Below the pieces are notes generated by a model, which saw nothing but the letters and a program-made list of their open reading frames with translations, was not told the origin of the DNA and did no database searches. Below, piece by piece: positions 30,315 through 35,186 of a stretch of DNA of 60,744 nucleotides (its first letter is position 1; every line of letters starts with the position of its first letter). Source of the DNA: Nanobdellati archaeon (GTDB lineage: Archaea > B1Sed10-29 > JAGVWA01); assembly GCA_018304505.1 (NCBI GenBank), contig JAGVWA010000007.1:1-60744 (forward strand), written 5' to 3'. The position numbers and the translations under genes are program-made.

Positions 30315-30401
30315 AATGTTTACATAATAAAGTAATTCATATATAAACAGTTCTAATATTAGTGGAGTTAATGCTCTTATAAGCTTAATCCGTAAAGGGG
30401 G

Positions 30402-30441
30402 TATATAAACCGTTTTCTCTTAAGGCTTTCCGAAAATTTAA
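30402..30441. repeat. 40-bp direct repeat, copy 2
   Basis: Same orientation as 28604-28643, about 88 nt after palindrome copy 2. TATATAAAC at its left end resembles an archaeal TATA element, so part of the conservation could be promoter sequence. Confidence 0.75.
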
Positions 30442-30530
30442 CTCGTGCGGGTTTACAATAACTATATAAACAATGCACTATAGAACGGTTTTCTACAGAA
30501 AGGTTTATTACTGCTTGGGGGTTTGAGTAA

Positions 30531-30737
30531 ATGATGCCGCAAAGTCTGAATTATGAAGCATTCATGAAGCAAGACGTGTCTGAGTATTCTGGGCAATGGA
30601 TAATAATTATCAACCAGAAAGTCGTAAAGCATGGAACTGAACTTCAGCTAATTCTAAAGCAAGTGCAGAAGGAGTACCCGAAGCAAAAACCACTAATTGC
30701 GAGAATCCCCTCCTCAGCAGAAGAGCTGCTGTTGTAG
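30531..30737 (+). CDS. DUF5678 domain protein
   Basis: A 68-residue protein: Y-S-G-Q-W-I-I-I-I-N-Q-K-V-V-K-H-G-T-E-L-Q-x-I-L followed by L-I-A-R-I-P-S-S. This is the DUF5678 pattern (short beta-beta-alpha domain, often next to retropepsin-like genes). It stops in TAG, and the retropepsin-like gene follows in the same frame 15 bases later, so the two are surely co-transcribed. Function unknown. Confidence 0.75.
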   Translation: MMPQSLNYEAFMKQDVSEYSGQWIIIINQKVVKHGTELQLILKQVQKEYPKQKPLIARIPSSAEELLL

Positions 30738-30752
30738 GCGGGGTTGAAGTTT

Positions 30753-31178
30753 ATGGTTCATCACTTCAAGTACAAAAAATTGACCCCCTCTAGAAACAAA
30801 GAGAGAAAATACCCCGTTATCCCAGTCACGTATAAAACGGGAGACATTGAATTTGAAGTCATTTCTGTTGTGGACTCTGGAGCAACATCCTCATATCTGC
30901 CGTATTCTTTGGCAATGGCTCTTGGACTGAGTAAACAGAATAAAATAGAAACAGAAACGATGGGTGGAAAAATAAGCACTGCTACGGACAGGGTTATTAT
31001 CTCGATCCCATTGAAAAATGATAGACCTGTAAGAGTTGAAACCTACGTAAACTTCCCATGCTCACCAAAAGACGATCACTATGCCCATCCCTTATTGGGT
31101 AGGCAGGGCTTTTTTGATAAATTTATAGTCACATTTGATGACAAAAACGAGAAACTAACCCTGAAGAAAAACGAGTAG
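30753..31178 (+). CDS. Retropepsin-like aspartic protease
   Basis: About 141 residues from the ATG at 30753 (TTG at 30744 is an alternative nearer the GCGGGG). S-V-V-D-S-G-A-T-S-S-Y-L (catalytic D41-S-G) is the active-site loop of retropepsin-type aspartyl proteases. P-L-L-G-R-Q-G-F-F-D-K-F is the family's downstream strand. Such enzymes act as homodimers. The DUF5678 partner is directly upstream. It lies one gene before a putative RiPP operon, so a role in leader removal is conceivable, but it has its own transcription unit and pairs with DUF5678 elsewhere. It ends in TAG. Confidence 0.78.
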   Translation: MVHHFKYKKLTPSRNKERKYPVIPVTYKTGDIEFEVISVVDSGATSSYLPYSLAMALGLSKQNKIETETMGGKISTATDRVIISIPLKNDRPVRVETYVNFPCSPKDDHYAHPLLGRQGFFDKFIVTFDDKNEKLTLKKNE

Positions 31179-31243
31179 CGTGGACAGCCCGAGGAAGCAC
31201 TCAAGGTGGCTCTTGCTGTGCGCGATTCTGCAATTGATGAAGG

Positions 31244-31253
31244 TTTTATATAC
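31244..31253 (+). promoter_or_regulatory. TATA box of the putative RiPP operon
   Basis: TTTTATATAC at 31244-31253 ends 22 nt before the ATG at 31276, so initiation would fall at or just before the start codon (leaderless). The preceding retropepsin gene ends at 31178, so the operon has its own promoter. Confidence 0.55.
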
Positions 31254-31275
31254 ATGGTCCTATAAACTATAGGTT

Positions 31276-31620
31276 ATGGAAATAAGCTTTACTGGCAAGG
31301 TTGCGTCTAAAAATGACATAGACATGGTTACTGGTAGGGCTCTTTGGGTAGGCTCATGGGAAAAGCAGTTTGACGCTAACCAGGACAGCATCCTCGTGTG
31401 CCCCAAGACGGATTTTCTTGATGTCTCGAAACTCGCGAAATTTAGGGCCATTGTGTCTGCTACAGGCGGCGCGCTGTGCCACGCAGCCATCATTGCCAGG
31501 GAGCTGGGCATACCCGCGATAGTCGGGGTTGGAATAGAGAATTATGAGAAAGTCAAAACTGGAGATGAGCTTCAGTTGAACATGCTCACAGGAGAAATCA
31601 CTTGTGACGGAGGTAAGTAA
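31276..31620 (+). CDS. Stand-alone PEP-utilising-enzyme mobile (phosphohistidine) domain
   Basis: A 114-residue protein. T-G-G-A-L-C-H69-A-A-I-I-A-R-E-L-G-I-P-A-I-V-G is the swivelling phosphohistidine domain of PEP synthase/PPDK. The ATP-grasp and PEP-binding domains are absent. In the parent enzymes His69's equivalent carries phosphate between two active sites. Here it is the first gene of the operon, directly followed by the small peptide gene, whose Shine-Dalgarno sequence is inside this gene's last codons. Its role with the peptide is unknown; phosphate transfer to or from a partner is a guess. Confidence 0.85.
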   Translation: MEISFTGKVASKNDIDMVTGRALWVGSWEKQFDANQDSILVCPKTDFLDVSKLAKFRAIVSATGGALCHAAIIARELGIPAIVGVGIENYEKVKTGDELQLNMLTGEITCDGGK

Positions 31621-31749
31621 ATGGACTTGAGTCTAGGTACAACCACGTATGGTGGTTGGGAAGCAGACGGCTGGGAGAAAGACAACTGGAAAAGTGACAG
31701 CGATGGGATAGACCACTGGAAGGCAACCGACAGGGGGCAGGGCCAGTAG
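31621..31749 (+). CDS. Putative RiPP precursor peptide with D-x-W-[E/K]-x repeats
   Basis: A 42-residue peptide. A short leader (MDLSLGTTTY) precedes five pentapeptide units: GGWEA, DGWEK, DNWKS, a degenerate unit without Trp, and DHWKA, then a Gly/Gln tail. Trp falls at the third position in four of the five. GGAGGT at 31609-31614 lies six bases before the ATG and inside the end of the preceding gene; the ATG directly follows that gene's TAA. A radical SAM/SPASM gene follows 59 nt downstream. Short, repetitive, aromatic-rich and next to such an enzyme, it fits a precursor for peptide crosslinking, perhaps at Trp. No matching family is known to me. Confidence 0.7.
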   Translation: MDLSLGTTTYGGWEADGWEKDNWKSDSDGIDHWKATDRGQGQ

Positions 31750-31750
31750 C

Positions 31751-31790
31751 AAAACCAGGGGGGCTCCTTTGCTCCCACTCGGTTTTTTTT
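31751..31790 (+). terminator. Hairpin plus T-run between peptide and radical SAM gene
   Basis: AAAACC at 31751-31756 can pair with GGTTTT at 31781-31786 around a G-rich/C-rich inner stem. A run of eight T (31783-31790) and then seven G follow. Placed right after the peptide stop, it could terminate most transcripts and so favour peptide over enzyme, as in many RiPP clusters (inference). Confidence 0.5.
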
Positions 31791-31808
31791 GGGGGGGTGT
31801 AAATCTTT

Positions 31809-33083
31809 TTGAAAACTATAGCTGAAAACGAATTCAGGAAACTCATAAGAGTACGCGATGACTTTAAGGTATTTCCAAAAAATTATAGCCCCGTGGACGT
31901 TCTTGGGGAGACAAGGGATTACGCCACGGTTCCTGTTACGAAACAAACAATTGTTTTTGAGGTTACAAACGCCTGCCCCATGGGCTGTGAATATTGTTTT
32001 ATTTCGAAAATAAATAAACAAGAGCGCCTCAAGCTTGCCGTCAACACCGAGGAGAACGTGGAAAAACTTTTGGATTATATGCGCTCAGCGGATCTTGATT
32101 TTGACTTGATTTTCCACGGTGGCGAGCCATTGTTGGCCAAGGGCCTGATAAAAAAGGTTGTTGATTCTATTAAGCACAGCAGAATGCTTAGAAATCGAGT
32201 TGCGTTTTCAATGCAGACTAGCGGTAAAGGCATGACCAGTGATTTTCTTGACTGGTTGATTGACAACGGGGTAAGTATTGGCGTGAGTGTTGATGGGCTC
32301 GCCAAGGGGCTTCGTGACTCATCGCCAGGCATTGAATTGCTAAAAATGCTTAATGAGCGCGGAAAAAGGGCCGGCCTCGTAGTTGTTGTTAACTCATCTA
32401 ATCAAGAAACGCTGTTTGAAGATTTTAAAAAGCTCTATAATGATTTCGGGGTGCGTGGATTCAACTATAACTCCGTAATTTCTGACAACAAGCATCAATT
32501 GCCAGATCTTGGAATAGTGCGCGAGCAAATGGAAAAAATCACCAACTACGTGCTGCAGAATAATTTGACTCCGAGTTTGAATCCGATGCAAATGTTTGCA
32601 GAGCGGCTCGCTGGTGGTGGGGGATCCCTGTGCTATGACGATGGGTGTGGGGGTTTCAAGAGGATAATCGCTTTCTCCACAGATGGCAAGTTCTATGCCT
32701 GTGATTCGTTAACAGACAACCCTGCATACAAGGCTGAGGGGCCAGGGGAATTTGCAGAAAAAAGGAAAGCCCTTTTGAAGGACGTCATAAAAATGAAAAC
32801 CTCTCTGTCATGCAGCACATGCAAGTATGGTTATGTGTGTTGCCTGCCGTGTATTGGAAAAGTAAGCCTCTTTGGCTCATCTGAGAAAACCATGAAGCAG
32901 GCATGTGAATACAACAAGGTTTTCCTGGACATCCTTGTAGAAAAAACACTTGACAACCCGCTGAATCTTTATCATTTTATTGGACTGGGTAGACAGCCTT
33001 CAAGGCGCGACGTGTTGCTGGCATACTCCAGGCCGTCTGCGGAATTTCATCCATTAAATCGCATTGGGGGTGAAACCAAGTGA
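31809..33083 (+). CDS. Radical SAM/SPASM peptide maturase
   Basis: A 424-residue protein starting at TTG 31809, with the G-rich GGGGGGGTG about ten bases upstream. The radical SAM cluster motif is C56-x3-C60-x2-C63 (ACPMGCEYC), followed by F-H-G-G-E-P-L-L. The C-terminal SPASM part supplies further cysteines: Y-A-C-D-S-L, C-S-T-C-K-Y-G-Y-V-C-C-L-P-C and Q-A-C-E-Y-N. SPASM radical SAM enzymes typically install C-S, C-C or C-O crosslinks in ribosomal peptides, or act as sulfatase maturases. With the Trp-repeat peptide next door, peptide maturation is the best reading. No obvious leader-binding domain is seen in the first 50 residues. Its stop overlaps the next gene's GTG. Confidence 0.85.
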   Translation: MKTIAENEFRKLIRVRDDFKVFPKNYSPVDVLGETRDYATVPVTKQTIVFEVTNACPMGCEYCFISKINKQERLKLAVNTEENVEKLLDYMRSADLDFDLIFHGGEPLLAKGLIKKVVDSIKHSRMLRNRVAFSMQTSGKGMTSDFLDWLIDNGVSIGVSVDGLAKGLRDSSPGIELLKMLNERGKRAGLVVVVNSSNQETLFEDFKKLYNDFGVRGFNYNSVISDNKHQLPDLGIVREQMEKITNYVLQNNLTPSLNPMQMFAERLAGGGGSLCYDDGCGGFKRIIAFSTDGKFYACDSLTDNPAYKAEGPGEFAEKRKALLKDVIKMKTSLSCSTCKYGYVCCLPCIGKVSLFGSSEKTMKQACEYNKVFLDILVEKTLDNPLNLYHFIGLGRQPSRRDVLLAYSRPSAEFHPLNRIGGETK

Positions 33084-34039
33084 AAGAAATCAAGGGGATA
33101 CATGGTGAGCCCAGGCCCGATTTTTTCAACAATTACACAAAGAGGCTAGAGCTCACCAAAGACAACCTGCTGCGGATCCTTAACGAGGTAGGGAACGCTC
33201 TTGCTTACCGATTTTTAGGCGCCAATGAGGATATCTTGTATGACATCAAAACCGATAGGGGAGAGTACATTGTCGCTGACGGCAAGGTTTCTGAAAAACT
33301 GGACTCTACTAAGTTTGAAATCCATTTAGATAAGCCCTCGCCGCAGGTTGAAAAAGTTAAGGCGAACATGGATTATCACATCAATGGATTCAAGTTTGCC
33401 TTTCTGAAAAATGATTTCAATGCCTTAGTGCATCACTATGCAAACTTCTATGCCAACTACCTGATATTTATAGAAATTAAGAGCCAGTTTGAGAAAATGA
33501 TTGATGCAGACGATGGCGAAATAGAAGGTAAAATGCTAATGCATATAGTGCCATCGTATTATTACGGTGTGTATACTGATCCTGTTTTCTCTAAATTCAT
33601 AGAAAGTGGCAGCTTCAAATTCGACAGGGAAGAAATAATAACATACAGAAAAGAGGCACTGTCTCAAGACCCATTGAAGTATTATTTCTTTAGGTTGCTG
33701 GATTTCTCAGTAGAATACTTGGACACGTATTACATACTCTCAACTGTAATGCTATATTTTCTCTCAAAAAGGAACGTTCCCAAGAACGTGTTTTTGAATG
33801 CAGTTAAGGAATCAAAGTTTGAAAACCGAGAGGCAACAGATTATTTCATGAGCTTTACCAACTATGACAACTGTGCTTATTTTAGTTTAGATAACGAAGA
33901 CCAGAAGCTCACTTACTATGTTAATGTTGGACGAATGACTGGCGAGCGATTCTTCTCAAAAGAACTCCTCGTAGACAACTACCCTCGCTACCCATTTTCT
34001 ATGCTATTGATACAAGAAGAACTGAACATCAAAGGTTGA
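33080..34039 (+). CDS. RiPP-operon protein of unknown function
   Basis: A 319-residue soluble protein starting at a GTG that overlaps the radical SAM stop by four bases (GTGA), so strictly coupled to it. It is mostly helical, with aromatic-rich segments (L-V-H-H-Y-A-N-F-Y-A-N-Y and Y-Y-Y-G-V-Y). No signal peptide or membrane helix and no recognised family. Coupling implies a partner of the maturase: substrate-binding, a second tailoring enzyme, or immunity. Nothing in the sequence decides among these. Confidence 0.65.
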   Translation: MKEIKGIHGEPRPDFFNNYTKRLELTKDNLLRILNEVGNALAYRFLGANEDILYDIKTDRGEYIVADGKVSEKLDSTKFEIHLDKPSPQVEKVKANMDYHINGFKFAFLKNDFNALVHHYANFYANYLIFIEIKSQFEKMIDADDGEIEGKMLMHIVPSYYYGVYTDPVFSKFIESGSFKFDREEIITYRKEALSQDPLKYYFFRLLDFSVEYLDTYYILSTVMLYFLSKRNVPKNVFLNAVKESKFENREATDYFMSFTNYDNCAYFSLDNEDQKLTYYVNVGRMTGERFFSKELLVDNYPRYPFSMLLIQEELNIKG

Positions 34040-34286
34040 TTATGGCCTGGCCAAAGAGCACCCAAGGGGTTTTTCATAAAAGGGGTTGTTAAAGCTTTGA
34101 GGATGTTTGATTCATCTTCGAAGCAAACATGCGAAAATTCATTGTTTTGCATGTCTACGCAGAAATAATTTCTAATATAAACATAACTCCAGAAGTCCAT
34201 TCGCCGAGTGGCTTGTTGGCTTAGTAATGGATACTGGATATGGGTAGAGGATATCGATTTTTGAGAAGATGCTTTCTGGTAGTTTG

Positions 34287-35186
34287 TTAACTTACAGTTA
34301 GTTCAGAGCATATAGAATCGAAATTTTCATTGAAATAACCAAGGAGCACCTTGTTTTCTTTGTTTTCTCGATTCTGGCTCACCCAAGTTTGGAATTCAGC
34401 TATCGATCGGGAACCTGAGCAGTAAATCAGTTCAGCATTGGTTTCGGCTAGGGGTTCCCAAATATGAGTATCATGTGTTTGTACGCGTAAGCCTATAATA
34501 ACTATTTTGCTTGCCGATTGCGCAAGTTCTCTAAACCTCTTCCGTTGAAATAGGATAAAATCTGCTCCCGATGTTGTGCGTTTTTTGGGCTCCATGTAGC
34601 TCATTATCGGAGGGAACGCATCATTTCTTATTCGCTCCTTGAAGTGTTCTAGATCAACAATTGATCTCCCCGGTCCATTTGTTGTTACCCCCATTCCATT
34701 AAATGATACGTGCCTGGAATTTCCGCGTATGGACTCACAAAATAGATTGCAGCACCCATGCGGGATACACCACTCAATATGGTCTTGAATATTAGGTGTG
34801 GCTCCAAGAATTGGGATCCACCCACTAATCGCAAGGGAGGTCTCTAGTAATCGATCGTAGTTGAAACTTACAGGAGTTCCTTTCCATGCATTCTCTTTTA
34901 GCTTACGAAAGAGTTTTACGTAGAGATTATCTTCTGAAGGGATAAATTTAAAGAAGTATTCTGCCATTGCCCGTTGTAGTTCCGGCAGCAAGTGTCCTTT
35001 ACGTTCCGAAATCTTTAGCATGCCCTGCTCAAAATCCGAGTGAAGTAGCGCGGTAAATTCCGGAGAAAGTTCTTTCCATACCCTGCTAAATTCTGCTAGT
35101 TGATCATATAGCATGTTGGTTAATGGTGGCACATTGGTTGCATCTGAGCCATAACTGGCCCCTGCCCCAAAGATGATCATGTCCAT
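34287..35186 (-). CDS. SIR2-like domain protein, possible defence NADase
   Basis: A 299-residue protein. I-I-F-G-A-G-A-S-Y-G is the nucleotide-binding start of SIR2-like proteins. V-S-F-N-Y-D-R-L-L-E and I-P-H-G-C-C-N-L-F (catalytic-type His) follow. I-V-I-I-G-L-R-V-Q-T-H-D-T-H-I-W corresponds to the usual I-I-G-(Y/L)-S-F ... D strand. Such domains act as NAD-degrading effectors in several antiphage systems. No second effector or sensor domain is fused, and no obvious partner is adjacent on its strand. The 247-bp gap 34040-34286 shows nothing else. Confidence 0.75.
   Translation of the reverse strand: MDMIIFGAGASYGSDATNVPPLTNMLYDQLAEFSRVWKELSPEFTALLHSDFEQGMLKISERKGHLLPELQRAMAEYFFKFIPSEDNLYVKLFRKLKENAWKGTPVSFNYDRLLETSLAISGWIPILGATPNIQDHIEWCIPHGCCNLFCESIRGNSRHVSFNGMGVTTNGPGRSIVDLEHFKERIRNDAFPPIMSYMEPKKRTTSGADFILFQRKRFRELAQSASKIVIIGLRVQTHDTHIWEPLAETNAELIYCSGSRSIAEFQTWVSQNRENKENKVLLGYFNENFDSICSELTVS

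Follow-up and report, generated by a model that had tools for sequence, protein, structure and literature searches.

The Question

What is made by an archaeal operon that encodes, almost without spacing, a free-standing phosphohistidine domain, a short Trp-repeat peptide, a radical S-adenosylmethionine (SAM) enzyme and a large orphan protein? This question is raised by a locus on contig JAGVWA010000007.1 of a Nanobdellati archaeon, whose full 60,744 nucleotides are referred to here as the window. The operon works like the radical SAM/SPASM systems that mature ribosomally synthesized and post-translationally modified peptides (RiPPs), and it falls in no named class of them. We consider it probable, at roughly 0.7, that it represents a lineage-specific, RiPP-type system of small-genome archaea, in which the peptide is the substrate of its enzyme and a phosphohistidine swivel domain is associated with the pair; this estimate covers the RiPP reading and not all steps of the mechanism jointly.

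The Operon

We read window positions 30400–34800 together with their open reading frames (ORFs). The four ORFs occupy 31276–34039 of the plus strand, tightly packed as the initial annotation had described them, and the elements of the operon are the following.

31243–31251, plus strand: TATA-like box TTTTATATA 5′ of the first operon gene, by resemblance to the consensus only
31276–31620, plus strand: solo phosphoenolpyruvate (PEP)-utiliser mobile domain, or phosphohistidine swivel, 114 aa (PF00391)
31606–31620, plus strand: Shine-Dalgarno sequence GGAGG of the peptide ORF, overlapping the end of the swivel gene
31621–31749, plus strand: putative precursor peptide of 42 aa, MDLSLGTTTYGGWEADGWEKDNWKSDSDGIDHWKATDRGQGQ, with counterparts at six other loci by position and composition
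31759–31790, plus strand: terminator- or attenuator-like hairpin followed by T8, between the peptide and radical SAM genes
31809–33083, plus strand: radical SAM/SPASM putative peptide maturase, 424 aa, TTG start (PF04055)
33080–34039, plus strand: ORF4, an orphan protein of 319 aa, overlapping the radical SAM stop

The peptide ATG directly abuts the stop of the swivel gene and GGAGG lies 7 nt upstream of it, so the 42-residue Trp-repeat peptide with a strong ribosome-binding site was correctly recognized. The same holds for the solo phosphohistidine domain, for the radical SAM enzyme with its C-x3-C-x2-C core and SPASM cysteines, and for the coupled fourth gene, whose product has no Pfam or NCBIfam match. 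A single promoter had also been proposed: the TATA-like box does precede the first gene, but with a hairpin and T8 between the peptide and radical SAM genes the four genes need not form one uniform transcript. This hairpin is GC-rich, its stability falls within that of shuffled sequences (z −1.2), and we treat it as a candidate attenuator.

Recurrence within One Archaeal Class

Related loci were located by a search for the swivel domain and by a profile built from two radical SAM enzymes. The home genome, 0.92 Mb in 21 contigs, belongs to a phylum that consists of one class with 19 genomes in our set, and the arrangement recurs there: in the window, at a second locus of the home genome (L039), and at five further loci, spread over four other genomes of this phylum. 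At L039 the order is a 46-aa aromatic-repeat ORF, the radical SAM gene, a solo swivel and a 261-aa helical ORF, and at the loci of G016, G017, G006 and G007 (two loci) it is small ORF, radical SAM gene, solo swivel. The initial annotation's own test was whether related radical SAM genes always adjoin a short Trp-repeat ORF and a solo phosphohistidine domain. A swivel adjoins the enzyme in all seven class-level hits (E ≤ 1e-20) versus none of 27 control loci from other archaea (about 1.5 kb of flank), and an aromatic-rich acidic small ORF is present at 7/7 versus 3/27. Among the remaining class genomes (G001, G003–G005, G008–G014), the radical SAM hits inspected in G001, G004, G008, G012 and G014 were of other types, with neither swivel nor peptide adjoining.

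No close relative of the window enzyme was found in the contigs of 85,462 prokaryote species, about 390 archaeal genomes, viral contigs (IMG/VR), phages or plasmids, and thus nothing points to a common mobile element or phage gene set. Matches in a viral structure library were limited to general radical SAM proteins of phages.

The Peptides as Putative Substrates

The small ORFs of the seven loci encode 32–51 aa, are acidic and rich in Trp and Tyr, and lie just 5′ of the radical SAM gene. Besides the window peptide they are MKAFNVSLNNLPITAAYPESGKWIDTYGDTGGQYVQTSYSEHYTEN at L039, MKVWEVSASKLDDDDDKYVDYPYSDGGYVDTWTDTYGDLG in G016, MQVWAVLSVSSSGDDEYSEYGTWTDTYSDSDSDSWDDDSDSYDNSSDD in G017, MVWSLVAENAGGDEYREWGTWIDTYGEREEDE and MAEYMTSSCTSGGDDWPRYSKSGGYSRSGGWGEYEDWRDHYNKYYDRDEYD in G007 and MFAYIKDLEEKPTSFEDSYRQHTNITWDEYDDDIAYR in G006; for three of the seven an internal ATG was chosen, with a better ribosome-binding site than that of the longest frame. 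Four peptides have the motif W[IT]DTY[GS][DE] in common, in which third codon positions vary and residues are kept (GAC/GAT, ACA/ACC/ACG, TAT/TAC, GGA/GGG/GGT), as expected of a translated and selected peptide. Conservation of the peptide frame had been named as decisive: in the relatives the frames are open, mostly with good ribosome-binding sites and with these synonymous changes, while the window copy has no close relative of its own. Given the conserved counterparts elsewhere, a spurious peptide ORF appears unlikely from the sequences.

An acidic residue stands at position +2 of Trp or Tyr 23 times versus 11.1 expected from shuffles (P 5e-5, an optimistic value because the peptides are related and not independent), with no excess at +1, +3 or +4; Asp is enriched at −2 as well. 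In the window peptide the Trp residues are W13, W18, W23 and W33, a period of five with one unit degenerate, and two aromatic pairs at spacing five versus 0.4 expected give P about 0.05 for this single peptide. The D-x-W-[E/K]-x repeats of the initial annotation are indeed found in it and are peculiar to it; among the seven members the window copy diverges most. Cys occurs once among the seven peptides and is absent from that of the window.

Under composition thresholds that were fixed after the peptides had been seen, 10 of 869 background ORFs pass (about 1%), as do those at three of the 27 control radical SAM loci. Two of these three control ORFs have a common motif, LTHYV..E.SPF, and resemble real precursors themselves. 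The small ORFs with this motif immediately precede radical SAM genes in other archaea (L087, L096) and are, from their sequence, a candidate second precursor family. In G380 (L084) a 43-aa ORF, MGKMDDLEIYVENGEVKVAYKRDYRMGYDGFGSHSHGWASKTK, immediately precedes a radical SAM gene and is another possible precursor.

The Radical SAM Enzymes

The window enzyme matches PF04055 with E 1.9e-11, has the core CPMGCEYC, and its SPASM motifs are complete (C..G-x4-C and CX2CX5CX3CX17C). The CX3CX2C core and SPASM cysteines are likewise complete in the home-genome paralogue and in the G016 and G017 enzymes; one SPASM motif falls outside the strict pattern in G006 and at the first G007 locus (G007a), and the second motif is missing at the other (G007b). 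The enzymes of the five relatives, as taken, have 606–660 aa and carry an N-terminal helical part and a segment resembling a RiPP recognition element (RRE), clearest as GRWAIVDD. A comparison by hhalign linked this segment to the N-terminal end of the paralogue in the home genome (87% probability, E 4e-6); no Pfam PqqD match was found. An AF2 model of the G017 enzyme, made from seven sequences, reached a mean predicted local distance difference test (pLDDT) of 82, and its best match in the PDB was CteB (E 3.3e-16). CteB was also the best match of the family profile (1.2e-49), in an alignment that begins inside the N-terminal RRE of CteB, as assigned in PMC6231123, and runs through it.

The Swivel Domain

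The window swivel matches PF00391 with E 1.8e-18 and 66.4 bits, above the cut-off of 23.1, and carries a catalytic-type, phospho-accepting His in GGALCHAAIIAREL. This His is invariant in eight aligned swivels and kept in all further ones read. In the swivels of G016, G017 and G007a it is kept though the preceding glycines are lost (KRGSWSTHAAI, RRKNFLCHAAI), and PF00391 membership was confirmed for the diverged swivels. The home genome has only 12 radical SAM genes, and of its four swivel genes besides PEP synthase three are at most two genes away from one of these (p about 4e-4 by chance, from a simple binomial estimate). PEP synthase is also its only protein with a PPDK_N (ATP-grasp) domain. 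A solo PPDK_N is encoded together with a swivel in G002 and G220, which makes a phosphate-transfer chain plausible.

Several further swivel loci were observed. In G220, which belongs to another archaeal family, one operon (L045:5942–9749) combines a radical SAM gene and a 25-aa Cys ORF (MEKVLWQFSCLACGGISGSLDEEEN) with a helical ORF, a swivel carrying a fused C39-peptidase-like domain, and the solo PPDK_N. In G222 (L048) a run of swivel-containing proteins of about 350–530 aa is accompanied by a PPDK_N protein, with no radical SAM gene. A sister cassette in the home genome (L038:3756–6240) and in G007 (L044:5144–7636) consists of a radical SAM/SPASM protein whose N-terminal part is RRE-like, a fusion of swivel and helical domain, and a 48–50-aa Cys ORF with a common C-x3-PC-x-GGCSA-type motif; the radical SAM frame of L044 is broken near its end. 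A contig scan with the helical domain of this Cys-type cassette found only G007.

Comparison with Known Systems

As in SPASM RiPP systems, a short precursor ORF adjoins the maturase gene in the window and at six other loci, and the CX3CX2C core and SPASM cysteines are in place. For the RRE, common though not universal in such systems, the picture is divided: an RRE-like domain is recognized in the relatives by profile and fold, and the window enzyme has none. The search for a named class gave a different result. The best NCBIfam model for the window enzyme is PapB (NF047865), at 88.6 bits against a cut-off of 340, and across the seven enzymes the best matches are PapB and CbpB (TIGR04163), at 88–177 bits against cut-offs of 340 and 375. 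Membership of the PapB, SCIFF, HxsB, GrrM and YhhB families was rejected on score.

In the triceptide systems (XncB, OscB, YxdB, YhhB), too, a SPASM radical SAM enzyme is encoded next to a short precursor with many aromatic-X-X motifs. The residues linked are Tyr and Asp for YxdB, and Trp and Asn or Asp for OscB, in both cases from i to i+2 (PMC11002830), and the +2 acid bias in our relatives matches the residues joined by these cyclophane synthases. Unlike triceptides, the present system is archaeal and has an extra phosphohistidine domain, and its window peptide has no +2 acid; of the described 3-CyFE families, the YhhB and GrrM/OscB models matched far below cut-off.

By structure and profile the best matches are CteB, the SCIFF maturase (PDB 5WGG), TigE, ChlB and SuiB, and the relatives resemble these in the RRE-like domain before the radical SAM core. 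CteB, however, makes Cys thioethers, whereas the precursors here contain at most one Cys each; the relatives have an extra N-terminal helical domain and the window enzyme has no RRE. With one Cys in seven peptides, the Cys-rich precursor of SCIFF and sactipeptides is not seen. PapB-type precursors are also short-period repeats, and the PapA substrate depends on Cys, which is absent from nearly all peptides here; assignment to the PapB ranthipeptides was rejected both on score and on the precursor, as the Cys-X3-Asp/Glu spacing finds no place in a Cys-free window peptide. The swivel is the same domain as the mobile His domain of PEP synthase, rifampicin phosphotransferase and PigC (PF00391), with its phospho-accepting His and a score above cut-off, but here it is encoded alone, without an ATP-grasp or substrate domain, within a radical SAM peptide operon.

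The initial annotation knew of no described RiPP class with this gene set. Our literature search met no system that pairs a solo swivel or PEP-utilising domain with radical SAM RiPPs; subscription papers were mostly outside the search, so novelty is unproven.

Proposed Pathway and Alternatives

That the peptide is the substrate of the radical SAM enzyme, as the initial annotation proposed, is supported by the comparison of loci, and we hold it to be very probable. In the pathway that we propose, a short acidic Trp/Tyr-rich peptide would be made in excess of the enzyme, from its own strong ribosome site and with a terminator-like hairpin after it. The SPASM enzyme would bind the N-terminal leader, a task that in the relatives may fall to the RRE-like domain, and would cross-link aromatic side chains to nearby residues, most likely from i to i+2 as in triceptides; for i,i+2 cyclophane chemistry we put the chances at about even. 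The solo swivel may be charged in trans, PEP synthase being the sole PPDK_N protein of the home genome, and the charged swivel might then phosphorylate either the peptide or the enzyme complex, a phosphotransfer role to which we give slightly less than an even chance. Taken together these steps would define a new archaeal RiPP class, one that couples the cross-linking of Trp/Tyr-X-Asp repeats by a radical SAM enzyme to phosphorylation (e.g., of Asp, Thr or Tyr) by a free-standing swivel charged from central metabolism, a proposal that we make tentatively. We know of no radical SAM peptide pathway with such a second, phosphorylating post-translational step.

Several observations weigh against the RiPP pathway proposed above. 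The triads of the window peptide are WEA, WEK, WKS and WKA, so that A, K, S and A stand at +2 of Trp, and D at −2 and +3. The window enzyme begins past the region of the RRE. A tree of 37 enzymes unites four relatives firmly and puts the window enzyme on a very long branch (2.65) without firm placement, and a clean single clade of all seven was not recovered; a single origin is neither established nor rejected (p-AU 0.076, and 0.37 without the window enzyme). A dedicated PPDK_N partner of the swivel was not found in the home genome, nor a transporter or dedicated peptidase within the operon, and ORF4 has no significant homology in the archaeal genomes and viral contigs searched.

Other explanations start from the same data. 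The small ORF might be a leader, regulatory or spurious frame, with the radical SAM enzyme and swivel acting on another protein or metabolite. Chance aromatic acidic ORFs do exist at the background and control frequencies given above, and a terminator-like hairpin follows the ORF; yet its presence at 7/7 loci, a protein motif conserved through synonymous codons, ribosome sites, and the resemblance of two of the three control ORFs to real precursors make this quite improbable. An unlikely but more serious possibility is that the peptide, instead of being an antimicrobial or signal, serves like PqqA or MftA as the scaffold of a small cofactor derived from it, with the swivel phosphorylating or activating it during excision. 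In its favour, the operon shows no export gene, and the Cys-type swivel cassettes of these genomes likewise contain small ORFs and PqqD/RRE-like modules; several copies per genome would be compatible with this role. The precursors of pyrroloquinoline quinone and mycofactocin are, however, conserved single-site peptides, unlike the repetitive peptides here, which vary strongly between paralogues, and neither a PqqB/F-like peptidase nor a dehydrogenase partner was seen.

The chemistry may also differ with the peptide still the substrate: a Lys-Trp i,i+4 bond as in streptide, an aryl ether, epimerisation or Tyr cleavage. Streptide-type substrates contain Lys and Trp, which the window core ADGWEKDNWKS resembles, its lack of a +2 acid would fit, and no single type stands out among the closest named models of the enzymes (PapB, CbpB, HxsB, YhhB, AmcB). 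Against this, the six relatives together show acid in strong excess exactly at +2, as in characterised i,i+2 cyclophane substrates, and thioethers are disfavoured by their almost Cys-free peptides; we therefore find other chemistry rather doubtful. We are about equally sceptical that the swivel is a structural or regulatory subunit instead of a phosphate carrier, e.g., one sensing the charge of PEP synthase to switch peptide maturation on or off. The lost glycines before the His in three swivels and the lack of a dedicated kinase domain in the home genome speak for it, whereas the His is kept in each member read, and G220 and G002 encode the swivel with a ready phosphate donor in solo PPDK_N.

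ORF4 and Neighbouring Genes

By position ORF4 corresponds to the separate helical proteins that accompany other swivels. BLAST and hhalign gave no support to it as an RRE or as a homologue of those helical proteins, and its single-sequence AF2 model was unusable (pLDDT 36). One helical protein family, about 25% identical, was noted beside solo swivels at L039:7907–8692 and L043:653–1507, with a convincing score in only two of 374 genomes.

Directly 5′ of the operon and on the same strand (30531–31178) lie a gene for a DUF5678 protein and then an ORF for a retropepsin-like aspartyl protease, the latter by a sub-threshold Pfam match. The protease is a candidate leader peptidase, and the pair may be unrelated to the operon; in L042 a comparable protease ORF is found some 4 kb away from the solo swivel. 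Just 3′ of the operon, on the minus strand (34287–35186), is an ORF whose start reads GAGASY and which matches AbiH weakly, below threshold; it is possibly a defence gene.

Implications for Archaeal Peptide Biology

To our knowledge, almost no RiPP products have been characterised from reduced-genome archaea, and what is known of radical SAM peptide maturases and of their substrates comes chiefly from bacteria. Even for Archaea as a whole, characterised RiPP products are few (PMC12144867). Here one family can be traced across several genera. It offers a substrate motif open to testing, an RRE-like domain and a phosphohistidine partner, and its putative substrates are short and expressible with their enzymes in E. 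coli. If the swivel does phosphorylate the peptide, the PEP/ATP charge of the cell would be linked to peptide maturation, and a new kind of tailoring step would be added to these pathways.

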